Positions 3,081 to 64,000 of a DNA stretch of 64,000 nt are shown one piece after another. The position numbers were made by a program, and so were the translations under genes. Each line of letters begins with the position of its first letter. The stretch's first letter is position 1. The stretch lies in NCBI GenBank assembly GCA_037042915.1, contig CM073193.1:6572001-6636000 (forward strand), written 5' to 3'. The notes beneath the pieces are model-generated. The model searched no databases, was not told where the DNA came from, and saw nothing but the letters and a program-made list of their open reading frames with translations. The stretch is from Auricularia sp. M13 (taxonomy: Eukaryota > Basidiomycota > Agaricomycetes > Auriculariales > Auriculariaceae).

Positions 3081-5021
3081 TTAAACGAAGAAGGATCCTC
3101 TTTTCCTCGCTACAGATGCTCGCGCGGGTAGAAATACAATGATGCTTACTAGCCACATGACCTGGGCCGATCGTCAGCAACGATGCGGGTATTCAGAGGG
3201 GTTTTGACTCACTGCGCTGAATGTTATAGCTTTCCACCAGTGATATCTGGAGGTCAACAGCCAGCCTGCGACGGGCGACCCCAGCAAGCTGGAGATCCCG
3301 AGAGCGAGGAAGACGAGACCGATTCGCGAGCTGGTAGCGTCAGTCAGCCGTCGCCGTGCGAGCAGATACAGCGCGCGCACGCACCCGATCTCGTTGACGT
3401 GGTTGCTTAGCGCGACGGTCATCGGTGTTGCAAGCGAGATGACTGCGAGCGGGGGTCTGTGAGTAAAATTGGGCAACCCAGGAATAGGCGGTACTGACTT
3501 GCACCGGTGAAGAATCCGTATAGGATGGCGATCACGATGGGAGGCGCCGGGCTGCTGCCTATGCCCAGCATGCCGAGCACGACGGCGCCACAGCCTGCAG
3601 CGCAGACGATTTGGATGTTGAAGATGCCGAAACGGTCTGCGAGGAAGGTGGGCAGCAGGCGTCCGGGTATAGACGCCGCGTTGAGTGCAGTGATCTACGG
3701 TCGATGCCTCAGCATTTTTGGGGTGCAATGGGCAATGTGGGGCGGACCAGGTAGAAAGATAGATTTGCGTCGACGCCGTGCAATACTGCGTCCAGCTGGA
3801 TGTAGAATACTGATTACGGATGTGTGAGTCTTACAAACATCCTGTTAGAGAGTCGTCCTTACATGGGAAGAACAGTGCCAGCGCCAGCAATCCCGACCTA
3901 TAAAATAAAACAAGCTGTTAGATTTCCTCGACATATGCACCGCGGCAACTTACGCAGCAACCGCGCACATGAACGGTACGTCCATAATGAAGGCCTTGAA
4001 GCTGGGCTGGGGCCCAGGAACAGGTGGGCGTTTATGTTTGGGTGGGAGTCGTGTTCGTACAAGCAAGTTGCCTATAAGGAGACATCCAGCAAGAAGGCCG
4101 CCCAGGGCGCGAACTGCATTGCCAAAGGTCATGTTTGAGTGCAGGAGCTGATTCATCATAATGGGAAGGACGACGCCTCCGGCGCTAGAGCCTGAATACG
4201 CAATACCAACTGCGAGTGCGCGACGCCGTTGAAAGTGGTGCGAGATCACCGCAGCTGGAAGCAATGCGTTATCGTGACAAGCAATTCAGCGAGCCGGCCA
4301 TGGCATACCTGTGGGTAGGAAGACGAGGCCAAGGCCTATGCCTGCGCCAACGCCTTGTGCCAAAATTATCTGATGATGGATATGTCAACGGTGGCTCGGC
4401 GGCCGTGGTCTGGAAAAAAGAAAATACCGACTTGATAGTAACTGTGCCGCTGAGCCAGCGACAGCATGAAGATGCAAAAAATGTAGAGCGTGCCGCCGCC
4501 GATTTGGAGGTGGTGGAAGTAGCCTTCGTCGAATAGTTTGCCGGCGATTACGCCGACGCCATGCAGAAAGCATAGTTGCACGGAACCGATCCATGCGACG
4601 TCGGACGCGGTGTGGTTGGGCAGGTATACGCGTACGTAGTAGTCTATGCGGGCCCGTGAGCGAGTGTTCGCCGGGGTCGTGGACGGCAGAAGGCACCTTC
4701 GAACACGCCAAAGCTGCTGACAGCGCCGTACGTCGCGAACATGATGAACCATCTGCAGCCGGGCTCAGGGACGCGAATTGAGTGCAGGCAGACGGCTCAC
4801 GCGCCGCAGACAGTGGCCCAGGCTTTGGTGCCGCCGTCTGGTATTTCGAATGCGGCGGAGGCGGCTGCGACTGTCGGACTCGGCGTCCGCGCCGGGTCCG
4901 AGTCGTCGAGGCCGGGTTCTGGGTCAGCAGCGTGGGAATAGCGTTCCTTGGTGTGTTCGTCAAGCGTGTCGCGTCTCTCGTGAACCAGCGTGGGGGAGGT
5001 CGTGCTCGGGCGGGAGGTCAT
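3081..5021 (-). CDS. MFS transporter, monocarboxylate-porter (MCT) type
   Basis: This is a twelve-helix major facilitator of the fungal MCT/Mch family. The start at 5021 gives a hydrophilic, acidic N-terminus of about 60 residues. It runs into the family signature PDGGTKAWATVCGAW at the first helix, joined across an intron at about 4737-4788. Further exons give FATYGAVSSFGVFEDYY and then SDVAWIGSVQL (helices 1-2). Later exons carry the central loop, SSAGGVVLPI (near 4170-4200) and GRLLPTFLADRFG (near 3620-3660). A 54-nt intron splits EIGSRIGLVFLALG near 3340-3400. The last exon gives VMWLVSIIVF and a basic tail, with stop TAA at 3081-3083. The known members carry monocarboxylates or riboflavin; the substrate here cannot be inferred. 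The gene is convergent with the ABC transporter (133 bp between stops). Confidence 0.87.
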
Positions 5022-6074
5022 GACGGTCGTACTCGGGCAGCAGCAGGGGCAGGTCCAGGGGGTGGGCCGGGTCCAGTACTGCGCGGCAGCCGCGCGGGCG
5101 AAGCAGACAGGGGGGAACTGTTGACATCCAGCATCCAGATAGACGTTCTGTATTCACGAACACTCGGAGGAGATCCGTCACCACGCGGACGTCGGGACGC
5201 GGAGCGGAGTCTGCGCAAACTGTCACCTGCTCTTGTCCCTCGACTCTACCTATCCCGCAGCTGTACTCTGCTCTCTGGTCCGGGTCAGAGCTGCATTTTT
5301 CTTCTTGAGTTTGGCTGTGCCTCTCTGTTTTTTCGTCACAAGGGCTCTGGAGAAGACAGTTGGCAGGGCCGCCCTATGTCGTGGCAGACCTCACCGCGTG
5401 CGACGGTTACGCCGTGCTGGCTGCTTCTTATTCGTACGACATTGGCCTTGCTACTAGGGAGACTACACTTGCACTGGTCCAATTGCCGGAACGCTCCTCG
5501 GAGTCGCAGCTCTACTATTGGATTACCACGTCACTTCCGGACACAGTCTCCAATATCTTTTCTTGCTCTCTCAGGCCTTTCATGAGCGCAGAAGTGTCTT
5601 TCTTTCTCTTCTGACTGTGCCGTTTAGGTCCTTACGCGGCATGAACGTGGAACAAGTTCGATTCTCTTTACACCTTTGAGAGCCATGCACGCCTTGACGA
5701 GCATGACATGGATTCGTCTCATTGGTTGCCTTGCTTTCTCGGGAGATGTGTATCGCGCCCCACTGGCATTGACAGTGCTACGAATATGCTGGCCGCTCTC
5801 TCTCGCTCTTTACATTCGCATGCCTTTTGAGCGGCTTGGACTTCAGCATATTCAGACTTAACGCCTTGCCATGCACGACGGTCTCACTGCGTGCCACTTT
5901 AGATCGGCAAGATGATAAGGGAGCAGCAATTGAATAATGGGGAAGGCGGAACAAGGTCTTTGTAAACGAACAACAAAGTGAAATCGGGCGGACATGTACG
6001 TAGTTACGTGGCGCGTGTCAACGTTCGTTGCCAGAGCGTAAAGAAAAGAGAAAGGCCGCGAGCAGCCAGGCCGT
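5022..6074. other. Intergenic region, no gene recognised
   Basis: About 1.05 kb between the start of the MFS gene and the stop of the Rab11 gene. It should hold the MFS promoter and the Rab11 3' untranslated region. Open frames on both strands here lack family motifs and recognisable splice structure, so none is called. Confidence 0.5.
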
Positions 6075-7167
6075 CTAACAGCACTTTCCGCCCTCCTTGT
6101 TCGGCGTCGCGTCGAGCGTGGGCCGGACGGGGATGGAGTCGCCCTGGGTCGGCTTGATCGAGTCGGCGGCCTGCTCGAGCGCCTTGCTGGATACAATTCG
6201 GTAGATATCTGACGAGTGTGGAGTCAACGGGCGTCTAGAGACCCAAATTCAGATACGTACCGGTCAGGATGGTCTGGAAGGCGGCCTCGACGTTGCTTGC
6301 GTCCAGCGCAGACGTCTCGATGAACGACAGGCCGTTCTCCGCTATTGGAAGGGAGGGGCTCATCAGCACAGGGGGAGGGGTGTGATGGGATATCGTGCTC
6401 ACTGGAGAAGGCCTTTGCCTCGTCTGTGGGCACGGCGCGCAGATGCTTGAGATCGGACTTGTTGCCGACGAGCATGATGACGATGTTGGAGTCTGCGTGG
6501 TCGCGCAGCTCCTTGAGCCAGCGGGTCACGTTCACGTAGGTGGCGTGTTTCGCGATGTCGTAAACCAGCAGCGCGCCGACTGCCCCGCGGTAATATCTGC
6601 ATGCGCCCAATAAGCTGCGCGCCTTGCTGAGCAACAATCTGAGACGTACGCCGAGGTGATGGCGCGGTAGCGCTCCTGGCCAGCTGCAGGACGGCGGCAG
6701 GGCAGTGCAATTTGGGCGCAGCGGATTGGATGGGCGCAGACAAGCCATAGCAGTCAGCTTGCTAGACAGCAAAGGACTAAAGCTGCAGGGACGCACCGGT
6801 ATCCCAGATCTGGGCCTTGACCGTCTTGCCGTCTACGTTTATGGACCGCGTCGCAAACTCGACGCCGATGGTCGACTTGGACTCGAGATTGAACTCATTG
6901 CGCGTGAATCGCGAGAGCACTGCGAGTTTGGATAAGATATGGCGGGATTGGATATTGGAATGCATGTGCGCATACGGTTACTATGTGGGGCAGACGAGGT
7001 CGCGTGTCAGGAGGAAGTGGAACCAGGGCAACAAGCTCGCGCACCTCTTGCCGACTCCAGAGTCTCCAATGAGCACAACCTGGTCAGGATTAATCCTGGG
7101 ATCATGGGGATAGAATGAGCGGGAGGGTTACCTTGAAGAGATAGTCGTAGTTTGAAGATTCGGCCAT
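6075..7167 (-). CDS. YPT31: Rab11/Ypt31-type small GTPase
   Basis: This is a small Ras-superfamily GTPase of the Rab11 (yeast Ypt31/32) subfamily, acting at the trans-Golgi and recycling endosome in polarised secretion. Exon 1 (7132-7167) encodes [13 protein letters not shown]-loop GDSGVGKS lies in exon 2 (7045-7079). A 5-nt exon (6976-6980) then joins to the exon beginning at 6919 and restores [14 protein letters not shown]. Switch I ([10 protein letters not shown]), switch II ([19 protein letters not shown]), the guanine motifs GNKSD and ETSA, and a C-terminal double cysteine (GGKCC, geranylgeranylation site) are all present. Stop TAG is at 6075-6077. All parts typical of a functional Rab of about 210 residues are there. 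Its start codon lies 45 bp from that of the TAO3-like gene on the other strand. Confidence 0.95.
6976..6980 (-). other. 5-nt micro-exon of the Rab11 gene
   Basis: On the minus strand the five bases TAACC are preceded by an acceptor (acatag) and followed by a donor (gtatgc). Exon 2 ends two bases into a codon (AG). Adding TAACC and then the exon that begins TGCTC gives Ser-Asn-Leu-Leu-Ser, exactly the conserved Rab11 GKSNLLSRF. Without it the reading frame is lost. Flanking introns are 64 nt (6981-7044) and 56 nt (6920-6975). Confidence 0.88.
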
Positions 7168-16070: not shown

Positions 16071-16149
16071 GGCGGGCACGCTTGCCGCCCTCAGTTCCCG
16101 TTGGAGAACCCCACCCACCCATTCTCTTCTCAGACCGCGTCAACTCAGA

Positions 16150-17873
16150 ATGGCCGCAGCAATGCACGTCCGCACTGACCCAGTGGCCACAAAGCGCACC
16201 CAGGCCGACGCAGACGACGAGCGCGCTGCTCTCACGCCCCCGCTTACGCCGGACAGGACCACGCTGCCGCTGCTGCCGTCGGTCGCGCAGCCGCCCAAGC
16301 AGGACATGCCCGAGAACTACGTCGAGCACACGCTCAAGACGACCAAGCCTCTGCCGCCGATTACCTGGGCCAACCTCTACAAGGAAATCAACTGGCTCTC
16401 GCTCGGCATTCTCACCATAACCCCTGCCATCGCCATCTACGGTCTCTTCACCACCCCCGTCTCCCTCTACACGGCCATCTGGAGCGTCGTGTACTACTAC
16501 ATTACCGGTCTCGGTCAGTCCTTTCCCCTGCGCCACACGGCAATGTTTTTTTTGACTGACGATCATCTCCCAACAGGCATCACCGCAGGTCAGCCGGCTC
16601 CGCCCCACTCAACTTTTTTTTGCAAGCTTTTTCTCACACACCTTGCAGGCTACCACCGTCTCTGGGCCCATCGCTCATACAATGCGTCCAAGCCTCTCGA
16701 ATGGTTCCTCGCCTTCGCTGGCGCCGGCGCCGTCGAGGGCTCGATTCGCTGGTGGTCTCGCGGCCACCGCGCCCATCACCGCTACACCGATACCGAGCTC
16801 GACCCTTACTCGGCACACAAGGGCTTGCTCTGGTCTCACATCGGCTGGATGGTTCTGCTCCCGCGTCGCAAGCCTGGCGTTGCTGACATTTCGGACTTGA
16901 GCAAGAACCCGATCGTCGCCTTCCAGCACCGCAACTACCTCCCGCTCCTCATCGTTATGGGCTTCATCGTCCCGACCGTCGTCGCTGGCCTCGGCTGGGG
17001 CGACTGGTGGGGCGGATACTTCTATGCCGGTGCTGCTCGTCTGTGCTTTGTCCATCACGTGCGTATCATTCCGCCCCCTATTCGCGTTCGCCGCGGAGCT
17101 CCTGACACGGATTCTGTTTTGTTTCCGCGATCCAGTCCACGTTCTGCGTCAACTCGCTCGCGCACTGGCTCGGAGAGACGCCGTTCGACGACAAGCATAC
17201 GCCGCGCGACCACTTCATCACGGCGCTCGTGACGATCGGCGAGGGGTACCACAACTTCCACCATGAGTTCCCCTCGGATTACCGCAACGCCATCAAGTGG
17301 TTCCAGTACGACCCCACGAAATGGTTCATCAAGGGCTGCCAGCTCGTCGGCCTCGCGTCTCAGCTCAAGACGTTCCCGGACAACGAGATCAAGAAGGGTC
17401 AGCTGACCATGGAGCTTAAGAAGATGCGCGAGATCCAGGAGCAGATTGTCTGGCCCGAGAACTCCAACCACCTTCCCGTCATTTCCTGGGAGTCTTGTGC
17501 GTCATCATTGCCTTTTCCAGAAATTTCCACGCTCACACAGTCTCTAGTCCAGGAGCAGTCCAAGAACCGCCCGCTCATTGTCGTCGCTGGCTTCATCCAC
17601 GATGTCTCCTCTTTCCTCGACGAGCATCCCGGCGGTCGCCATCTCTTGGGCAAGAACATCGGCAAGGACGCCACAACAGCATTCTTCGGCGGTGTCTACG
17701 ACCACTCGAATGCCGCGCATAATCTTCTCGCGATGATGCGCGTCGGTGTCCTTCGCGGCGGCCTCGAGCTCGAATCGGAAAAGGCTATCCCGCCAAGCCA
17801 GAAGCTCAAGGTCGTGCGCGCCCAGGAGTTGTACATGACGCCCGAATCGTCCGGCGTAGACTCGGACGATTGA
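16150..17873 (+). CDS. OLE1: Acyl-CoA delta-9 desaturase with cytochrome b5 domain (copy A)
   Basis: This is an endoplasmic-reticulum stearoyl-CoA desaturase that inserts the delta-9 double bond to make palmitoleate and oleate. Exons: 16150-16513, 16577-16588 (12 nt), 16649-17058, 17136-17496 and 17548-17873. Histidine boxes are HRLWAH, HRAHH and HNFHH (the last near 17254-17268). The hydrophobic segments of the first exon and near 16950-17050 fit the four-helix membrane topology. The last exon is a cytochrome b5 domain with the heme-ligand motif DEHPGG and the second histidine in YDHSNAA. The start is set by the TATA box and by alignment with copy B. It is tail to tail with copy B, 596 bp between stops. 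Confidence 0.96.
16577..16588 (+). other. 12-nt micro-exon of desaturase A
   Basis: Twelve bases (gcatcaccgcag) lie between an acceptor caacag and a donor gtcagc. They restore [14 protein letters not shown], the first histidine box region. Skipping this exon removes four residues just before the first metal-binding histidine box but keeps the frame. Confidence 0.9.
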
Positions 17874-24675: not shown

Positions 24676-27600
24676 CTAATGACCCCTACCGCTTGCACGA
24701 TCCTCGTCTTCGATCTCCATGACTGCCTCGAAAAATGCGCCGAGCGCAATGAGCCCAAAGCTGCTCGAACCGAACTGGCCATCGACTACGGAGAGCTTCC
24801 AGGCAATGCTGGCCCGCTGCACACGCTGCCACGGCTCGATGCTATCGTCTCCTGCAAGCTCGGCGCAGACCTTCTCTCTGAGCCGCTCCATCTGCTCGTT
24901 CATGCGCGTCATGTGGTCCTCGCGCTTGCGGAACAGTGCGGATGAGACGCGTGCGACAATCGTGCCCGCGACCAGCTCCTCTTCGGTTAGCTGCGAACGC
25001 CTGCTTCGCGATAGTGTGTTGTGCTGGCATAGCAGACGCAGGTCGACGCAATATTGGTTGAGCAGCTGCACGATGTCGGACAATGTGTTGGGTGTGCAGT
25101 CGTCGATAAGCGCAAGAGGGGCGACGTGTTGAGTCAGCTGCTCAATGGCTGACAATATCGGGTGGGACTGCAGCTGCGCGTTCGATGTGAGACGTTCGTT
25201 GGCGGCGCTCAGAGAGAGCGGTTTGCGTGCCGCAGCGCTGGTTCTCTGAGCACGCCCTTCCTCGCGCGCCTCCTCCACAGCAGGCAAAGAAATTGCCCTG
25301 AAAAGGTATCCAAGGGCGCGTTCACTGCGATACACCCTATCGCGGTCTGATGCTCCAAGTTCTGAGATGCTCCAGTCGGGCATCATATTGGGAGCCGTCG
25401 GAATGTCCGCGTGGTTCACTGGAATGCCGGTCTTCGGGTAGTCGACCGCGACTGCACGCATATCGATAAGTGCTACTTCAGTGAAATGGGAAATACTGAC
25501 CTGAATGCAGCTCTGCGAGCTTCATGCACCGAACGTCGTACACACGATCCTGGCTGGCGTCTGCTATCTTCAGCCAAAGGGAAGCGATACGAGGCAGCTG
25601 GTCGTTGATGACGAAGTTCGTGAAGAACTCGTAGATATCTTGCATTGTGTATGGCCTTCCTATGTCCTGCCGCGGTGTGTTTTTGTACATGGCAGGTGCA
25701 GCGGCATTTGGTGGACGCAAAGTGCGAGGCGTCATCACGACATATTGGTCCCCCTGGAGAATTTAGCGACATACAGTTTATGACACGAGCAAAGCTTACA
25801 TCGTAGTCTCCACCTCCCAAACATGAGCCAGGTGATCGCCCGCCTTTAGCTTCTGTTAGAAAATTACCATGACTTTGGCCATCGGCCAACCTTTTGTCGA
25901 AAATACGACACAGTTCATTGGCCGCTCAGCAGCAAACGCAGTACCCGGAGGCGGGCGTCCAATAGCTCGCATAACCATAACGTCGCCGGGATGACAAGTC
26001 GGGGAGCGAGAGACAACGACTTCGCCTTGCAGGTATCTAACCTGCGACAGTGGCTCCTCCTTGATGCACACTGATAGGGAGAGGAAACATGAGCATTCAT
26101 CTTCTAAATGAAAACAGTTGCCAAACGCACCGAAAATTTCGCCTTCATTCAGGATGCCGTGATGGTCTGGAACACCAACCAATGTCCAGCTATCAGGTAC
26201 CGGTATCCGTCCCCTGAACTTCAGTCCACGCAAAACGTGGTTGACAGCGAAGTCCAAGGTCCTCACGACAAAATCATTGTCGGCCAGTAGGTGGTGTTCG
26301 ACCTCCGGGAAGTTAGCAAACCGTTGTCGGATCCTCCTGAAGAGCGTGGGAAGGCCCATCGGGCCTCCAAGCCCGTTCGATTCGAGGAGAGCTGCCGCAG
26401 ACTCGAGCGACTTCGTCGCCAACTGTGTTCGATCGACAACATCCTGCTGCAACCTCAAGAACGTCTCCTTGGGTATACCTCGCGCTTCGAGGACCATGAT
26501 GAGAGGTCGATTTAGATAAGCTGGCGAAGGCGTAGTGAACGCCGTGCAGACTTCGATCTGGTTGAATTGTTCGCCGGCTTCGAACTTCATCATGCTCGGG
26601 CGGAGGACGACCTGCCGACCAGAAAGCGTGGGGTCGACAAGGAGGGTGCCCTTTGCACCTCCCACCCGGACCTGAATGACACTAGGTGGAGGTGGAGGGC
26701 GGATGACCCCTCGTTTACTTCGACCTCGGCAAAATTCCAACCAGACAGCGGCCATGGCGTCGGTCGAGATGAGACCAGCACCGTCAGTCATGCAAGCGGG
26801 GCCGTCGCCACCTATGTCAGGCTCTATACGACGCTCCGACGCCAACAGCTCGCCAGAAGGGTCGGTTGCACTGAAGGCAAGTGACATGCGAGCGGCAACG
26901 CGTGCAGGGCAGCGTTCATCTTTCGTGAATGTGCCCATGGTGGCGCGAATCGTCGCGGCATTGTGAATGCGCCCTTCGGTATCCGTGAATTCGTGTACCA
27001 TCCATACTGAGTGCTGCTTTAGCGCGCTTTGAGAGTACGCCAAGTATTCGAACAGCCGTCCACCCAGTCTGAAGCCTTTCTGTAAGATCGGAAGGACATG
27101 CGACCGGACGAGCGCTTGTGTGTCGACGTCTGGGTCGTAGCGGAACGTCTGGCCGTCGTTATCCGTGAACGCGACACGGATAAAATGCTCCTGATGGTCG
27201 GCGTATGCGTGCAAGATGCGGTTCGAGCGATCAGGAATTGGACCGGTGATGGTGACAGAAGACGGAGAGACGGCAACATGGAGCGTGGAGATGTCATTGC
27301 GCCTTCTTCCCACCGATTGATTAATCGCTTCGCCAGCACTGTTGGGAACTACTCCCCGGATGAGGGATTGCAGAAGACGGCTAACCACGGAGGCGGAAGC
27401 CTGGACGTTGTCCATATACCAAGGCATCACCTTCAGTTCTGCGCCAAAGGCACGGAGGACCTGCGCTGTAACGCTGGATCCATGAGCCCGAACGAGTTCC
27501 TCTATGAGGCTGCGTTGTTCCAAGATCTCTCTACCGTCGAGTAGGTGCGCATATAACAGGTGCTCGACTTGGATAGCAATTGCCTGAGGAAGCGTCGGGA

Positions 27601-28645
27601 TCCAAGCTTTGATCTGGTCCAGGACATCGGCAGAAAATAATCCGCGTCGTTCGCACTGATAGTTTAGTTTCTGCGGGGTTCGCAGTCCCGCGACCTCTGC
27701 AGCTGCAGTGAACCTGGATATATCGTCGTGTGACTGGACGACGACCCGGAGCCACCGAGCGACATATCGGCCAGTACGTTTGAGATCCTCGGGGAAAGCA
27801 ACGCGCCTACGCCGTCCTTTCGAATAATTGCCGAGGAGCGGAATCAAGTCAACGCCAGGTGGCTCAAGCTCGAAGCTGGGCGCCACGCTCAGTTCGAATA
27901 AGATACTGGCTTGCGCCAAGTTATCTTCTGGGATAGTGACGAGGTCGATGTGCGAATATCGGAAGGCAATTGCAGGCTGAGCAGCACGCTGCGCAAGCTG
28001 ATTGAAGTCGAGACGGGTGATGATGTCTAGCAGATCAGATACTGAAGACTCGGGTACGGTATCGTTGATAATGCTATGATTGCCAGAGACTCTGGGTATG
28101 AGCACGACCTGCCTCTGGGCGTTCTCGAACCGGAGCTCCGCCCAGTCAGTCGACTCCCACTCGATGGAGTACGCGCCGTCGCGGCAGGTCCACCCGAACT
28201 GGACAGCAGCGACCTTGACAGTGGTTTGAGCAAGCTCGAAGTCGCGCAGTTGACGTTCTGCGAGGGCGCGGGGATTTTCGAACGGCCGGGAGAGCAGGTC
28301 CTGGATAAGGCCGGGTGGGGGCTCGTTCTCGCTTCGCCGGAACAGGAGCCTTCGACCTCTGAGCACTATGGAGCGGGAGAACGGGGTATGTCCGTAGAGC
28401 TCCATAAAGCGGCGTGCAGCAGGAAGGCTAGGAATAGTCAAGGTCCCCGAGCCTGCGTGGCCGGGCATGCGGTCGCGACCCGACCGGTTCGCCCGCTGCT
28501 TCATGAAGAGGTTGGCCTGAAAGTTTAGCGGCGCGCCTCCGGGAGAGTATGGCAGAAACTCGGGGCTGTGAAGCGCTTTTGCCAAGACGTCGACGACGTC
28601 GTACTCCGTTGCTGAATATTCGACGTTCTTGAAAATGATTTCCAT
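24676..28645 (-). CDS. RNA-dependent RNA polymerase (quelling/RNAi type)
   Basis: A cellular RdRP of the QDE-1/Rdp1 family, which makes double-stranded RNA for RNA interference. The start at 28645 gives MEIIFKNVEYSATEYDVVDVLAKALHSP, a usual beginning in this family. One long exon carries the N-terminal half and much of the catalytic region (RPSMMKFEAG, SRSPTCHPGDVMVMRA). A 60-nt intron (26071-26130) gives the conserved NEGEIFVCIKEE. The catalytic motif GGGDYDGD is itself split by an intron near 25757-25800 and continues DQYVVMTPRTL. AVDYPKTG follows across the next intron near 25460-25500. The C-terminal exon ends at 24676. The expected length is about 1,260 residues and no disabling change was seen. 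RNAi is therefore probably active in this organism. Confidence 0.92.
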
Positions 28646-30120
28646 GACTATTCCTAGCGATCAGCGTCATATCACACCCAGGACAGAGGCTAGTACATAC
28701 TCTGCTGATACAGGCAGGCTTGGATAGATACTCCTAGCGGTTCGAGGCCAAGTTGATATCGATCCACGCGACGGCTTCTATGCAGGCATGGCAGCAGTCA
28801 CCAGCCAGCTCGGGGACAGGCTCCATTCAGCAAGCAAGTGAGCCTTTGAGGGCCCGTAGATCGTACAGCACCCGGACTGCAAGCATGACGAATGCAGAAT
28901 CAGGACCAGGACTGCAAATTCGATTACTATAACGCTCAAGACCAGAGAGCGCCACTCTCCAGATAGAGGTCAAGGATAGTAAGGTATCGTGCTTTGATGG
29001 ATATAATCGCAGAGTGCCATCGCCCAGGCCTTGTTGCAGCAATGGATTGAACAAGGCAACTCGCGAGGAGGAATACGTCGACCGTAGTTCTGCAGCCGCG
29101 CGTTCTGACCCCCATTCCATCTCAGTTCGAGCACCTTCGAAGGGCCTGTGAGACAGGTTCCTCCAGTCATGCAGCCACTGACTCAAAGATAGGAAACGAG
29201 GCAGCTGAACGTGCTATCATAGGCCAGAGGACTTGACAGCTGGTGTGGGTGTTGCAGCCGCATCACAATCTGCACTGTGCACATTCAATTTACTGTATTG
29301 GTGATGCGTAGCCAATTGTCAAAGCCGCTCGCAGGCTAGAGGACTCACTGTGAACTTTCCATAAATGCTCATCAGTCGGCGCGTGATCGTGAGAACGAGA
29401 CCACAACAGAACTCGCATTTTCCCGAGGGGGCTCGTGCGCCACGAACCAATGCACAGTGCATCTCACCCGACACGCGGTCCATTACGAAGACAAGTGGTC
29501 GAAGACAGTGGCATATATACAAACGAGAGAGGGCATAATGGACGTGTCATACGCATACGGGCAATATTTTCTTTGGTTTCGATAGAGTGGGAGAGAGATG
29601 GAGTATAAACACAATGCGAGTATCGACAAGCGAGAGGGAGCGAGGAAAAAAAAAAAGAAAAAGAAAAGCCGGCGAAAAATATGACAGGATGAAAGAAGAG
29701 GGAAGGTCTGCGATGCCACGTCGGGGGCAAGATCTCGACACGACCCGGGAGAAGGTATGGCAGGATGCACGGTAGTACACTTGCTGAAGAGGAGAGCGAG
29801 AGGGAGGAGGTAGGCATACACATCGTTCTGGGCACATCGAGTCTGTCGGGCAGGAGAGGAAGAGGAGGAGGAAACGGGGAGGACGCCTTTGCAGCCCAGA
29901 GGAAGACGGGATGATGATGAATGATGATGGAGTCGTGGTGGGAGATACATGGAGAGCACCGAGCCAGGGCAGGGAAAACGTACAAGAATGTGATAGATGA
30001 TCTAGCGACAGCAGAAACCGCGCCCGAGAGACAGGACACCCGCGCCGTGTGAAGAGAGCCGGAGAGAGATACCGATAGCCATGTGTGCTGCACCTACAAG
30101 TGCGCGCAAGCTGGATGTTA
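28646..30120. other. Intergenic region: RdRP 5' side and long cyclin B 3' side
   Basis: About 1.5 kb with no recognised gene. From about 29550 to 30000 the plus strand is strongly purine-rich, including an A-rich run near 29647-29668; in cyclin B sense this is a C/U-rich stretch downstream of its stop. Two minus-strand open frames of just over 200 codons here follow this skew and look non-coding. A TGTATATA motif in cyclin sense lies at 29514-29521. Confidence 0.5.
29514..29521 (-). promoter_or_regulatory. PUF-type motif TGTATATA downstream of cyclin B
   Basis: TGTATATA in cyclin B sense, about 600 nt after the cyclin stop codon. It matches the core bound by Pumilio/PUF proteins. It counts only if the cyclin transcript reaches this far, which the sequence cannot show. 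Confidence 0.25.
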
Positions 30121-56619: not shown

Positions 56620-57512
56620 GGCTGAGAGAGCGTGGGTTGGAAAGAACGGAAGGGTGGACGCGTGCGAGCGGGAGCCGACGACGAACACGAGGGGAAGGGC
56701 AAAGGAGCTGGGCGGGATTCGAAAGGGAGAACCCCGCGACGATGTGTTCGTGATCGGCAGTTGATCGCAGCAGCCGTATTTACACTTCGAGACGGGACGG
56801 GACCCGCCACGTGCGCAGCCACCGACAGCCGAATGCCGAGGAGTCGAGGACACGAGCTTCGCCCAACTGAAACCGCAGGCCAGATGCAATGCCACTGAAT
56901 AGCCTGAGAATAGCTTGACCGTCGTTGTTCAGGGTGTGCCGCAGGGCTAGCATCACTGGCGTCGAACCGATGCCCGGAAGACTCGTGGACCACTGGACGC
57001 AGATCAGCAGATCATTCACAAGGCGTCGATCCTGTCCGGAAAAAAAAGACCAATGCGATTTGACAGAATGCGGTCGTATCTTGCGTTCAAAAAGAGCAGG
57101 AGACCAGAAGAATGTACTGCGGCACAGTTCACCGACGCCGTGTGGCGGCAGCACGCGAGAGCCGCAGTCAATCACGTCGACGTTGTTGAAGTCGGCACAT
57201 GCCCCAGCTATGTATCCCCGATGGATATGGCACCAGCTTGAGAAACGTATTCAACCCCCAGCGTACAGCTGACACTATCGAGGACCATTGAAGATGGATA
57301 ATCATGGTCACAGCAACCCACAGTGGCGCGACTTGTTGTCCATGTTGCGACATAGTGACTCTAGAAGATCTGAGCCAGTAGGTTCGCCTGATAGATATGC
57401 CTTGCGCACTGCACATGACGAAGGCGCTGGAGCGGCGTCCGAGCGGCCATTTTCGGGACCAGGGCAACGAGCAGGCCTCACTTGAGTTCGCAGATACAGG
57501 CGCCAGTGCTGT
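56620..57512. other. Intergenic region upstream of GPI-protein gene
   Basis: About 0.9 kb up to the left copy of the LYS2-type repeat. Scattered short open frames, none with recognised features. Confidence 0.45.
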
Positions 57513-57917
57513 GTTCTGGAATGCCATAGAGTCGGGCATGTTGAAGCCGCTGTGTAATAGTCGAGCACATTCCACGGACGACAGATCCTCGCGGCAGAGG
57601 AGATGCTCGAATGAAAGTTTCTCAGCCGGTCATGGAAGCGTTCGCGAGAGTTGCCTGCTGTAGCTAGCCAACGCGGCTTGCGACGCGCGTCTGTTGACCT
57701 TGTCCAGAGCAAGCAGCCCAAATGCAGTCAAATAGGGCCATGGCTTCGACAGTTGAACGTTGAGCGACGTAGTGTTCATGTGGCAGGGAGGAAAGCAACT
57801 CGGCCGGCCCGGACCGACGTTCGCACTCAACCCTGTTGTGGCATGCGGCAAAAACTCCGGTCAGAGTCATCCTGAGCCATCGCGATCGCTGCACTCGATG
57901 GTAAGCTCAAGAGCCAA
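57513..57917 (+). pseudogene. Truncated duplicate of the LYS2 promoter and first codons
   Basis: About 400 bp that align along their whole length with 61678-62064, the promoter and first codons of LYS2. Shared stretches include gctcgaatgaaagttt, gtctgttgacctt, cggcccggaccg and cggcaaaaactc; by eye the match is roughly three quarters to four fifths identical. At the end the LYS2 start becomes gccatcgcgatcgctgcactcgatggtaagctcaag: the ATG is lost through a small insertion, but the following codons (ctgcactcgatgg, aagctcaag) remain. The similarity then ends. It is a direct, non-coding copy lying 100 bp beyond the 3' end of P450 B. Confidence 0.8.
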
Positions 57918-58019
57918 AATCACTTGCAGGATGGACAAGTTTCTAAGCTATCGCTAGAGACTCCGGTTCGGTTCATTGTACATTGATACAAAAACCTGCC
58001 CTTCTCTGCCCTTGCTCAT

Positions 58020-59951
58020 CTAAGTTGCATAGGACTTCACAGTACAGCGCAATTGTTTGCCCCTGAAGATTGGCACAAAGTGACAGCGAAATGCCATATC
58101 TTCGACACTGTCGTCCCAAGCAATAATCAGCACTTGGCAACGTATACGAGTATATTTACGAACGTAGTGTCGTATAACTGCATGTCAATCCTGCGGAATA
58201 CATGCCCAAAAAGCAAGTACATCTCAGACCAGGCAAGACTAGATTCATTGGTTATTTTTTGCGTCTCTGGTGGCGAAGAACCGAAAGCTTACTTTTGTCC
58301 TAGGCAGCTCCTCGGCCCCTTGGAAAACGCGACAAGGTTCTGGTCCAGACTGCGAGCATCGGGTCCGAGCCAACGTTCAGGACGAAACTCGAGTGGTTCT
58401 GGGAATAGCTCGGGATTTTGATGCATGAATATAGCGCCCATGCCGACAACAGTCTGCGAATCTGTTCAGCATCGCGACTCCTCTCTGAGCTGTTCATCGA
58501 GACGTACGCCTCGGGGCACGACATGCCCGGCGATGACAGCGTCCGAGGGACCCACGACGCGAGGCGCCGCACTAGCCAGCCCATGCGAAAACCTCAGGAT
58601 TCCTTGATGACTGCGGTCTGAGAGTCAGGGCCTGTGATGTGAGAAGATCACCTGGGAATTATAATAACGACACACCAGGTAAGGGAGTTTCTCTAATGTT
58701 TCCGCGCCAACCGCAACGTCTTTATCTGGCCAAACCGCCTTGAGCTCCGCGAACAGTTTAGTTTTTACGGCTGGACTGTGCAGGACCCAGAAAGTGCCCA
58801 TCGTACATGCGTGGCCAACCGTATCACTTCCTGCAGGGACGATTAACATGCATCGAGCAAGGAACATGACCCACCTGCGCCGAGGAGATTAACCGCCTCT
58901 GCCAGAAGAGATTCTCTTGAAGGAATTTAGCCTGACCCTTTTCAGGGTGAGGTTCAAGGAGATGGTTATAGATAGTTTCATGCTCCTCGTTATTAAGCAA
59001 GTTCGGGGTGAGCCAGAAGCTGGTCGACAGTTTGAGCCATCGCTTTGAAGAGCGTCCCAATGGTCGGAGTCGATGTCAGAAAGGCCAAAATGTCTCCGAG
59101 GAGATCGAAAATATGGAAACTCCACGGGAAATGCTTGAGGACCAATAGTATCGGGAATGAACGCTCGTAAGCCATGACCAGGAAGTGCGTAAATTTGGGA
59201 GCGTCAATGACACCGAACTCCCGTGCGAAACAGTAGGACGAAATGATATCGAGAGTTGCCGATCGGTAGGCGCGATGCATGTTGACCGGCGTGGATGAAG
59301 CATCGTAAGAGAGAATGCGCTGAATAAGGGCCTGCACCTGATGTTCTATTATCAGACGAACTGTGTAGTAGCCCGAGGGTGAGACCTGCCTTGCGCATCA
59401 CCACGTTCTCAAGCTGTGTCACCATCTTGCGGGAGAACATGGGGGCTAGGATATCCCGCCTAGTTTTGGCATCCCGAGGGTCGACGTACGCGAAGGAAGA
59501 TTCATCTTCGTGGAAGGTGCGATAGAGTTTGGGGTCTTTTGTGAACCGGTAATTGGTGTATATGTCACTGTATGCGCGTGGATCGTCGAAATGAAGCTGC
59601 AAGGGAGGTCAGAGTCCCAGTCAACAGGAACGAAACATTGCGAACCTCGTTTGGCCCGATTCTAACGACGGGACCTGTGTTCTCAGCTTGTGAGCGGCAG
59701 CAACGACCGAGAACCTGCTCCAACATACCGTACTCTTGGTGCAGCTCGACAAGCTTTGGAACGAGGGCACCATCCTTCCACACTTCATAATAAGTTGTAT
59801 ACCATTCTGTGGCAGCAGCGAGACGCGGTCCGGGAAAGCGTGCGAGAGGGTGAGAGACGAGGCGCCGCCACAGCCCGATTATTGTAAGGAGAAGAAGTAA
59901 GAGCGCGACGCAGCCAACAAATTGTAACGTTTGAAGCAGGCTCTGGCTCAT
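58020..59951 (-). CDS. Cytochrome P450 (B), terpenoid-oxygenase-like, with frame break at ExxR
   Basis: The start at 59951 gives a membrane anchor (MSQSLLQTLQFVGCVALLLLLLTIIGLWRR) and FPGPRLAAATEWY. Then come GPVVRIGPNELHFDDPRAY, FAYVDPRDAKTRRDILAPMFSR, the I-helix LLGAGSDTVGHAC (joined across an intron near 58834-58877), a TVVGMGAIFMHQNPELFPEPLEFRPERWL stretch and the heme loop FSKGPRSCLGQN. The last exons end VEDMAFRCHFVPIFRG with stop TAG at 58020-58022. At 58597-58598 the invariant ExxR helix is broken: TAVIKES runs into a stop, and LRFSHG follows in the frame reached by one missing base (GG for GGG). So it is either a base-call error or a recent pseudogene. The FSKGPRSCLG loop resembles trichodiene-oxygenase-type P450s. 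It shares a 204-bp promoter with the UbiA gene. Confidence 0.82.
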
Positions 59952-60155
59952 ATCCTCAGTGGTAGGTCGAAGTAACAGTTTGAAAATGAGGGGAAGCGGA
60001 GTCAGCACAAGAGGCCCGTGGAGCGCCGACTCACAAGCCCACATCAGATCTGTAGGACTCGCTGACAGCTGTCATTAGGGGGTATCATCGACTCGCAACA
60101 AATTCTGCAACACGTTTATCCTCTCAGGAAGTCCACACCATCATGCCTGCATTGC
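59952..60155. promoter_or_regulatory. Shared divergent promoter of P450 B and UbiA gene
   Basis: 204 bp between the two proposed starts (59951 minus, 60156 plus). If the UbiA gene starts at the second Met (60264) and P450 B at 60044, the interval stays about 220 bp. No distinct TATA box was noticed. Confidence 0.5.
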
Positions 60156-61388
60156 ATGAGATTATTATTAGGCACTCTGTCGCTACAGCGGCCCGGAGAA
60201 TATAGTACTCCCAACAACCAAGTCCTGCGCCAACTTGAGTATTCTCTCCCACATACGCCGAATATGTACTTGGAGAAGACGCGTTTCGGCCTTCCCGTAA
60301 CTCGTAATGGTGGATTTCCCACGACGCTGCTCGCCTGCACGACCTCGAACGTCTACATATTATATCTATTCACCTACACCGATATGAAGACGGTGATGCT
60401 CCCCGTGGTTCGTCGCCCTGCATTTATCCCCCATACATTCCCCAGCTCAACCAAGTAGACCATCTTCGCCGTCGTCTGCGCCCGTGAGGTATCAGTGGGT
60501 CGGCTCGCCATGGCGGTCTTTTGGCTCTGGTGCCACCTCCTCCAATGCGACATTGCGAATCAAGCTGGTGCACATTGGCAGGAAGACGCCATCAATCGTC
60601 CGTGGCGTCCCATCCCGTCTGGCCGCATCTCCCGACGCAACGCCCAAGCACTGCGATGGATCCTCTGCGTGTGGTGTCTCGCCCTATCAGCCTACTTCAA
60701 TCATAGCTGCCTCCTGCTGAGTGTGGCCTTCGCAGTGGATAACGTGCTTCACAACGATCTCTACTATTCCGACCATTGGCTCGGGAAGAACGTCTGCAAC
60801 GCCGTCGCGTATGGGATTTTTGAATGGGGCACGACATCGCTCGCAGGTACGCAGGAGATTTCCACACTGCGGCTGCGGGATTCGAGATTAACGTGTTGGT
60901 CCTGAGAGTAGACGCGGGTCGCAGCCTCGACGGTGCCGCACGAATTGCCGTGATGCTGTCGACATTGGTAATAGCCTCGACCATTCACATGCAGGATTTC
61001 TCAGACATATCGGGCGATAAGGCGAGCGGGCGCGGCACAATCCCCATCCGATTTCCAGGCATGACGACGAGAGGAGTTACTGGCTGCACAGTGTGCATCT
61101 GGTCACTTGCGCTGGGAAGGATATGGTGCCTCCCTCCGCTTCCTTCGGCGTTATTCGTGATCTTTGGGTGCTGGATAGCGTATAGGATCATCCGCTCCGA
61201 CTCGGAGCTGAGAGACGCAAACACATTCGTATCGTACACTGTGAGTTGGGCCTCTCCTGACGGCATCGTGGCTGACACGAGACTAGATGTGGCTCATGAT
61301 AGTCCACCTCCTTCCGATCGCAGCCCGCTGGTCCGGCAGACAAATGTTGTTCCTAGGCGAAGGACACAGACATCTACCGTCCAGATGA
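60156..61388 (+). CDS. UbiA-family prenyltransferase or UbiA-type terpene cyclase
   Basis: A multi-pass membrane enzyme of the UbiA superfamily. Exon 1 ends YILYLFTYTDMKTVMLPV. After an intron (gttcgt donor near 60406) come TIFAVVCARE, FWLWCHLLQCDIANQ, INRPWRPIPSGRISRRNAQALRW, and DHWLGKNVCNAVAYGIFEWGTTSLA. The exon near 60922-61238 holds the second Asp motif HMQDFSDISGDKASGR, and the last exon encodes WLMIVHLLPIAARWSGRQML with stop TGA at 61386-61388. The first motif NQxxxxxxED is degenerate compared with NDxxDxxxD, as in several fungal UbiA proteins. Known members either prenylate aromatics or cyclise farnesyl diphosphate (as in fumagillin biosynthesis). The adjacent P450 favours a terpenoid or meroterpenoid route. 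The start may instead be Met at 60264. Confidence 0.82.
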
Positions 61389-62039
61389 ATCAACCGCATG
61401 CAGGCAGAGAGCCGCAATTCTCAGCCCCACAGCACGATTCATGGAGCCTAAGGGCCGCAAGGGTTGCATAGAGTTTGTCCAGTTGAACCGGATGTTGCCA
61501 GAAAGAGACAGTAGCTCTAATCAACAATCAGATGCGCTGAGAACAGTCCACCGAGACTCTTCAGATCCCAGATCCCTGAAGCTGTGAGCTCCGCACGAGA
61601 AGTTCTCGCGGCCACAGAGATGCTGGAGTGAAATGATCCTAGCACAGTCTAGCCTGGAATGCCAATGCCGTCCTGCGTTCTAGAGTGCCATTGAGCCGGG
61701 CATGTAGAAGCTACTGTGTACCACTCGAGCGTATTCCACTGACGACAGATCCTAGGCAGAGAGGTGCTCGAATGAAAGTTTTTCAACGCGTTTGCGAGTG
61801 AGTTGCCTGCTGCAGCTAGGCGACGCCGCTTGTTGTCGCGTGTCTGTTGACCTTGGCCAGAATGGGTAGCCCATGAAGAGCCCAATAGGACCATGGCTTC
61901 GTCCGTTGAGCAGCGTAGCGTTTGTGTGGCAGCGAGGAAGAGTGCAAGTTGCGCCGGCCCGGACCGCGCACAGGAACTTTTTCGGCCGAGCTGCTTTGTG
62001 GCATGGCGGCAAAAACTCTTGTCAGAGTCATCGTGAGCC
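61389..62039 (+). promoter_or_regulatory. LYS2 promoter region containing the right copy of the duplicated segment
   Basis: The 3' end of the UbiA gene and the LYS2 promoter. From about 61678 on it matches the left copy at 57513-57917. Within it a motif of about 30 bp (ctcgcggccacagagatgctggagtgaaatga at 61603-61634) recurs in diverged form at 61755-61779, so the promoter also has an internal repeat. Confidence 0.65.
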
Positions 62040-64000
62040 ATGGCTGCACTCGATGGCAAGCTCAAGCGCGTCGTGGCCAGGCTGGCTAACGCGCCCTCCA
62101 TCTCCCTGCCCACGGATTATCCCCGCCCGTCTGGATCGCACAAGCTCATTGCAGCCTCGCACACGGGAGCCCTGCACGCCCCGACCGTCGTGGCGCTCAA
62201 TGAACTGGCGCGTTACAAGCCCGAGGACGAGGCTGGGGACAGCCCAACGGCGGCAGAAGACAGCACGACCACCCACGCCCACATCCTGCTGGCCGCGTTT
62301 GTGGTCGCTCTGCATCGCTACACCGGCGACACGACCCTTGTCGTCGCAGTCGGCGACGTGCTGGTCAAGGTCGACATCGAGCCCAGCGATCCGTTCTGGG
62401 CCGTTCTAAGACGCGTCCAGTTTGCTCTGCGCGAGGCCGCAGAGGACAAGGTCCCGTTCGAGGACGTTCGACGCGCTCTCGGCCGCACCGACGACACCGA
62501 CGCGCTTTTCCGCGTGCATTTTGGCGAAGAGGAGCCCGACAACATCGCCGTCGACCTCGCCGTTGCTCTCGTGCCTGGGCACCGCGTCCATGTCGCCTAC
62601 AACTCGCTTCTCTTCTCGGCAGCACGCGCTGCTCTCGTTCTCGAACAGCTCGAATTGCTAGTTCATGGTGCAGCCAAAGACCCCATGGTAGCTATCGGAA
62701 CGATGTCCATGCGCACTCCCGGCGTGCCCCTTCCCGACTCGCGCGCAGATTTGCATTGGTGCGGCTGGATGGGTGCGATCACCGATGTCTTCTCGCGCAA
62801 CGCAAAGGCGCATCCAGACAGGCCTTGTGTCGTCCAGTCAATTCCCACCGATGGCCCAGTAGAGAAGCAGCATCGACAAACCTACTCATATGGTGAAATA
62901 CGGCATGCATCCAACGTCGTCGCCCATGCGCTTCTGGCCGCTGGCGTCAAACGAGAGGAAGTGGTCATGATCTATGCGCACCGCAGCGTAGAGCTTGTAG
63001 TTGCTGTCATGGGAGTTTTGAAGGCGGGAGCGACATTTTCGGTCATCGGTGAGTCTTTGATTTCGGATGTGGCCACCACTATTTAAATTAAGTCTTTCAT
63101 TAGATCCTGCTTATCCACCAGCGCGGCAGACTGTCTATCTGAAGGTCGCCGCGCCCCGTGCCCTCGTTGTGCTCTCTGGCGCTGGAGAGATTTTGCCGCC
63201 CGTGAGAGAGTTTATCTCTCAGAACCTGCAGATCCGCACAGAACTTCCCGTGTCATTACCATTAGGGGGACCTCTGGCATCGTTTGCCCATCTCGCCGAC
63301 ACGGATCCTCATGTGGTGCTTGGCCCCGATAGCATAGGCACTCTGTCCTTCACCAGCGGGAGCACTGGCATCCCGAAGGGCGTGCGTGGTCGTCACTTCA
63401 GTCTGACGCACTTCTTCCCTTGGATGGGCGAGCGGTTTGGTCTTGGCCCGCATTCGCGTTTCACGATGCTCAGTGGAATAGCTCATGATCCTATTCAGCG
63501 AGACAGTACGTTGGCGTCTGGATAATAATGTTTATTTGTGCTCTGACATAGACCGAAGTGTTCACGCCGCTATTCTTCGGTGCTGAGCTACACGTTCCGA
63601 CGGCAGACGACATCGGCACTCCTGGCCGTTTGGCGGAATGGATGGCGTCTTGCGGTGCGACGGTCACCCATCTGACACCTGCAATGGGTCAGCTGCTCTC
63701 CGCGCAAGCGACCGCCTCCATTCCATCCCTGGCCAATGCGTTCTTCGTCGGGGACATCCTCACCAAGCGCGATGTTGGGCGACTGCAGGCGCTGGCACCC
63801 AACGCGCGGGTTATCAACATGTACGGCACAACGGAAACGCAGCGTGCAGTCTCGTACTACGCCGTTCCGCCGCGCGCGGAGGAGCCAGGGTTTCTCGCGA
63901 CGACGAAGGACGTCCTTCCCGCGGGCTCGGGCATGGTCGACGTCCAGCTGCTTGTCGTCAACCGCTTCGACCGCACGATTCCCTGCGGAGTCGGCGAAGT
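62040..64000 (+). CDS. LYS2: L-2-aminoadipate reductase LYS2, 5' part (3' end outside window)
   Basis: The large NRPS-like reductase of the fungal lysine (alpha-aminoadipate) pathway, which activates aminoadipate, loads it on a carrier domain and reduces it to the semialdehyde. Start [30 protein letters not shown] is the usual Lys2 beginning. Exons: 62040-63048, 63104-63506 and from 63559. The N-terminal condensation-like region is followed by the adenylation domain: [47 protein letters not shown], the core [48 protein letters not shown] and [15 protein letters not shown]. The family is about 1,400 residues, so roughly 40% is visible. The 3' splice after QRD uses the acceptor ccgaag. The promoter exists in a second, broken copy at 57513-57917. 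Confidence 0.94.

Follow-up and report, generated by a model that had tools for sequence, protein, structure and literature searches.

How does a pair of specialised-metabolism genes come to stand between two copies of the beginning of a core lysine gene? The question is raised by the window, a stretch of 64,000 nucleotides from Auricularia sp. M13 (contig C1, 6572001-6636000), in which the 5' region of LYS2 (61670-62072, plus strand) has a direct copy at 57506-57917 on the same strand; little is understood of how such genes move, whether inside one mushroom genome or from one to another. By pairwise alignment the duplication is real: 299 of 387 ungapped columns are identical (77.3%), with 41 gap columns and a K2P distance of 0.27, and blastn returns 74.5% identity over 428 columns with gaps (E 4.8e-68). 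The pair scores 392 against a maximum of 37 in dinucleotide shuffles, none of 300 reaching the observed value. A sequence-only reading had proposed this duplicated LYS2 5' end together with decay of its left copy; it was right on both counts, and its end points are correct to within about 8 bp. The right copy consists of 370 bp before LYS2 and about ten codons, and is joined to the LYS2 body (ATG at 62040). The left copy retains the upstream region and remains of codons 2-10; its start codon has been destroyed by a 6-bp insertion and a substitution, and similarity to the right copy stops at about codon 10-11. The coding overlap, which contains no intron, is identical at 27 of 33 bases, hardly above the upstream part (272 of 354). 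The longest stretch of identity is not unusual (P 0.23); mismatch density along the alignment is more uneven than chance (P 0.0038), which is consistent with constraint, although alignment error near gaps could explain part of it.

A search of the whole genome (52.1 Mb in 14 contigs) with the LYS2 5' repeat, by a program that skips very common words, returned these two places and no third. Adjoining the right copy, a possible partial third copy of some 50-58 bp of the repeat's 5' part lies at 61592-61649 on the plus strand. It is suggestive only: its score against the left copy is reached by 6 of 6000 shuffles and by none of 812 window stretches, its score against the right copy by 56 of 300 shuffles (nhmmer E 0.041). 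It is also the one hint that bears on the earlier proposal of a site of repeated recombination. An Rfam scan of 57000-63000 gave no known RNA at the gathering score.

The earlier reading placed exactly two genes between the copies; two are recognised, a P450 and a UbiA-type cyclase gene arranged head to head across a shared intergenic region of 312 bp (59952-60263), and alignment and gene map together bear out the layout of a cassette inside a duplicated LYS2 5' end. The UbiA-type gene (60264-61388, plus strand; four exons, 319 aa, frame intact) is terpene cyclase-like and matches PF01040 with E 3.5e-27 (95.7 bits, cut-off 34.2). Its start is presumed to be the ATG at 60264; the frame is open further upstream and has a second ATG there. 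The spliced protein carries motif II, QDxxDxxxD, as QDFSDISGD, and at motif I, NxxxG/AxxxD, it reads NQAGAHWQED, with A at +4 and the D one residue late (motif II from PMC9835599); four paralogous UbiA loci have a one-residue gap at the motif I position.

The cytochrome P450 gene (58020-59951, minus strand) has about nine exons, placed by eye, and is complete to its C-terminus. Its haem exon matches PF00067 (E 4e-13), two other exon pieces having no Pfam match, and contains FSKGPRSCLG, which conforms to FxxGxRxCxG, a pattern that we take to be the P450 haem-binding motif. Truncation of its 3' end at the repeat was considered and rejected, as the gene runs on to a stop at 58020. A paralog on contig C8 (66% amino acid identity in one exon) reveals three single-base frame slips in short one-base runs (58300-59000). 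LYS2, which has no second copy, has slips of this kind too, certainly one and probably three (about 3640-3700 and 4897 of locus L003), two of the three resting on what we take to be the LYS2 consensus. Because single-copy LYS2 slips alike, the P450 slips are equally explained by assembly error, and we do not accept that this gene is a decaying pseudogene; the slips in both genes suggest homopolymer errors in the assembly. LYS2 itself, the alpha-aminoadipate reductase gene (62040-64000, plus strand, extending beyond the window), has TIGR03443 as best match for all four of its gene pieces, successive along the model; since introns and frame slips break up the gene, no piece by itself passes the model's 1030 bits. 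Searched genome-wide, the first-exon protein found no second LYS2, the sole other match being 56 residues long (E 8e-4).

The same arrangement occurs beside a second core gene. A repeat scan of 144 kb of the organism's own DNA (the window and eight loci) yielded two direct pairs, the one at LYS2 and a 517-bp pair in L016 (C8:1327000-1336999), which is the locus of another UbiA-type gene. The gene downstream of the right copy belongs to the Sec1 family, PF00995 being found on three of three pieces, and we call it SEC1. On the SEC1 strand, L016 holds a left 5' copy at 3326-3830, the UbiA-type gene at about 4483-5536 (42-43% identical to the window UbiA in the main exon), and a right 5' copy at 5802-6302 that is joined to the gene. 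The repeat takes in the promoter, the first two exons with intron 1 between them, and some ten bases of intron 2. At both loci the left copy stops just inside the gene, and the right copy is seamless with the gene body, running in frame into LYS2 and into the Sec1-family gene; even the distance between the UbiA stop and the right copy is similar (265 bp at SEC1, 281 bp at LYS2). A whole-genome search with the SEC1 5' end found only its two copies, and Sec1-family matches fall in four places with 18 exon matches, as expected of distinct family members. A dispersed repeat was therefore rejected for either 5' end, each occurring at two places genome-wide.

Two further features of L016 deserve mention. 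A 111-bp inverted repeat at 6345-6454, 74% self-complementary and possibly a hairpin, lies in intron 2 of the Sec1-family gene and starts about 45 bp past the end of the right copy; if this site is fragile, it would be consistent with a break in that intron. Upstream of the left copy, at 287-2890, are open frames containing a GSGKT loop along with a D...QCK stretch, two pieces of which have no Pfam match; we take them to be reminiscent of NTPase-nuclease selfish genes of the Crinkler/RHS-like kind.

SEC1, unlike LYS2, offers enough coding sequence to ask how the copies diverged. Only 14 of 166 exon bases differ (92% identity), with dN 0.05 and dS 0.23 (Nei-Gojobori), and the ATG, frame and splice sites are intact in both copies; by contrast, intron 1 (52 and 53 bp) is no more similar between the copies than shuffled sequence, with 1383 of 2000 shuffles scoring as high. 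The difference between exon and intron has a P of 8e-12, the intron count being taken from a forced alignment. A relic that decays after duplication should diverge equally in exon and intron; the exons are alike and the intron is not, and the copies therefore appear to have diverged while coding under selection. Either each copy belonged to a working gene for most of the time since they separated, or the left exons, which have no exon 3 beside them, may still be in use. A dS of only 0.23 beside an intron that no longer aligns would also fit ongoing selection on the left exons or patchy gene conversion. As the LYS2 coding overlap is too short for a test of its own, the strongest argument there is carried over from SEC1. 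The two loci do share one quantity: promoter divergence is equal, with a K2P of 0.282 +/- 0.034 at LYS2 and 0.272 +/- 0.038 at SEC1, as would be expected of a single distance between donor and resident. Base composition is not strikingly foreign in the LYS2 insert (GC 0.53, tile median 0.576, 1 of 29 tiles as low).

These patterns hint that the cassettes came by a process that displaced the start of a core gene and supplied another. We tentatively favour, at somewhat less than an even chance, the hypothesis that both brackets, the P450-UbiA one and the lone UbiA one, stem from a break in a resident gene start that was repaired from a diverged, cassette-bearing donor. At LYS2, the break would have fallen within the first codons of the resident gene, and the repair template would have been diverged homologous DNA, from another haplotype or species, with P450-UbiA already in place ahead of its own LYS2. 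Copying would have set out from the LYS2 body and moved left across the donor 5' end, then UbiA, then P450, and the new end would have been joined to the broken resident 5' end, giving the order resident promoter and about ten codons, cassette, donor promoter and LYS2. At SEC1 the same route would have applied, with a lone UbiA gene as cargo. Repair from such a donor predicts that the left copy is truncated and the right one seamless, that similarity is confined to promoter and gene start, and that divergence is equal at both loci; the arrangement fits a diverged or foreign start having arrived with the cassette while the native start was left behind truncated. The suggestion, made from the window, that the cassette entered with the duplication gains substance from the second UbiA-type gene, which has the same architecture. 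Both architectures, with their copy numbers, orientations and spacings, and the selective divergence pattern at SEC1 are observed; the break, the repair route, the foreignness of the donor and which copy is the resident one are what we infer from them.

How closely such brackets follow UbiA genes was assessed by adding 36 kb from four other UbiA-domain loci and 60 kb from six 10-kb stretches, for a total of 240 kb (1 kb of L003 is shared with the window). In this sample, the direct repeats of at least 300 bp are the LYS2 pair, the SEC1 pair and one pair in L129 (67% identity), which continues piecewise over about 1.5 kb at one spacing, the open frames being similar too, as expected of tandem gene duplicates. 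A bracket is present at two of the five loci that match the window UbiA, the discovery case included; without it, the count is one of four UbiA loci against none of about 19 control 10-kb bins (the window outside the cassette, about five; L003, L004, L012, L017 and L125-L134), numbers too few to claim a UbiA-specific mechanism. The two UbiA loci on C11 have no direct bracket of at least 60 bp, the locus on C5 has two UbiA genes with only a 64-bp match between them and no bracket, and none was found at four more loci that have a UbiA domain but no match to the window UbiA (a fifth such locus, C10:1284345, was left out of the bracket check). The C11 loci, at 426 kb and 2033 kb (L013 and L014), present a different feature: about 8.4 kb or more containing a UbiA-type gene occurs twice in opposite orientation at 98.5% identity, either a recent segmental duplication or an assembly artefact.

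The main and serious rival to donor-templated repair, although on balance unlikely, is an old local tandem duplication of the cassette with the gene or its 5' part, in which both starts worked at first, and the gene body and cassette copy on the left then disappeared. It leads to the same final map and needs no donor to do so. Segmental and tandem duplications can leave a truncated gene copy, and direct repeats with a truncated left copy are what we see; L129 demonstrates that tandem gene duplications exist in this genome, and the possible partial third copy at LYS2 suggests local duplication activity. Such a duplication, however, requires a precise second loss at both loci, and no trace of the lost parts was found. 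To the left of the left copy, no relic of the LYS2 body is found apart from the known 30 bp and a chance match of 14 bp, UbiA has no match, and P450 matches are at chance level (best E 0.14); on the other side, about 15 kb beyond LYS2 are without a UbiA match and contain only weak matches to P450 pieces (best E 0.037). That two loci have diverged equally would have to be a coincidence, and neither the coding-constrained divergence of a truncated copy nor recurrence beside a second UbiA gene would be expected.

The left copies could instead still be in use, the SEC1 one as an alternative promoter whose exons 1 and 2 are spliced to exon 3 across UbiA, and the LYS2 one as an antisense promoter into the P450. 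The left SEC1 exons are indeed open and in phase, with good splice sites and a dN/dS of 0.22, and the left LYS2 copy, 102 bp beyond the P450 stop, points antisense into the 3' end of that gene. We consider this use quite improbable, since it requires an intron some 2.7 kb long, about twelve times the length of intron 2 of the right copy (introns 1 and 2 there are 52 bp and about 0.2 kb), and since the ATG is missing from the left LYS2 copy. Still more doubtful is a tandem promoter array that came first, with the gene pair inserted between two of its copies by chance and the copies merely decaying ever since: the possible partial third copy beside the right one would suit it, but the same layout at a second locus and the exon/intron contrast at SEC1 would be left unexplained.

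Least credible, to the point of near dismissal, is the proposal of the sequence-only reading that the copies bring the P450/UbiA pair under the same regulation as LYS2, which fails because neither copy adjoins the 5' end of P450 or UbiA. With the left copy beyond the P450 stop and the right one downstream of the UbiA stop, neither, where now placed, can be the promoter of the pair, which has its own intergenic region. For lysine regulation one could cite GAGTCA, common to both LYS2 copies and presumably a Gcn4-type half site, and two TGASTC cores in the P450/UbiA intergenic region, where we estimate that about 0.3 would be expected; against it, none of the three stretches scanned contains a full TGASTCA or a LYS14 motif. 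The TGASTC cores lie at 59999 and 60028 in the intergenic region and at 57864 and 62025, an aligned position, in the two LYS2 copies, a number not far from chance.

Replacement of a gene end by an incoming insert is not without parallel: fungal mitochondrial mobile ORFs bring a replacement carboxy-terminus to atp6, atp9, cox2 and nad3 in Glomus and to atp6 in Allomyces (PMC3630166). In that account an insert beside a core gene likewise lies between two diverged copies of one gene end, and the inserted end keeps the gene working while the native end is displaced. The two Glomus atp6 ends, at 63.5% DNA and 91% protein identity, are read there as of horizontal origin, a conclusion drawn for Glomus and Allomyces from relatives (PMC3630166). 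The differences are considerable, since those cases are mitochondrial, concern 3' ends and carry an endonuclease, whereas ours are nuclear and involve 5' ends with a promoter and metabolic cargo. No endonuclease gene was recognised in our inserts, which yielded only P450 and UbiA at LYS2 and only UbiA at SEC1; small ORFs were listed, and not each was scanned against the libraries. We do not assign the brackets to the mitochondrial class, which is the nearest situation described. By analogy, UbiA cassettes might spread between mushroom nuclear genomes via the 5' ends of essential genes, bringing a working foreign promoter and first codons and leaving the resident start as a truncated fossil, as a nuclear 5'-end counterpart of these mobile ORFs; we judge this wider idea improbable as it stands.

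Its interest lies in what it would make readable. Together, the displaced gene start and its replacement would form an arrival scar that can be searched for mechanically in any assembly; such a bracket marks the insertion point closely, and each half can be placed on the species tree, which makes donor and recipient testable. LYS2 and SEC1, with their equal promoter divergence, would be a first concrete case. In Antrodia cinnamomea, the tps1 and tps2 clusters for UbiA-type sesquiterpene cyclases similarly combine a cyclase bearing motif II with a P450 partner; the passages of PMC9835599 drawn on here mention no flanking duplication, and our locus has only the head-to-head pair. The main text of a study of lysine-pathway evolution in Agaricomycetes is silent on synteny, promoters and duplication (PMC8779187), and no LYS2 or SEC1 bracket of this kind is among the literature matches listed, an absence that is no proof.

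The rest of the window holds several genes of separate interest. Two desaturase genes with cytochrome b5 domains (16116-17869 and 20208-18477) form an inverted pair, tail to tail and 77% identical; a 934-aa frame at 25859-28660 encodes an RNA-dependent RNA polymerase family protein (PF05183); and on the minus strand, a frame at 53095-53817 matches phytases and acid phosphatases in the PDB (best E 2e-7).
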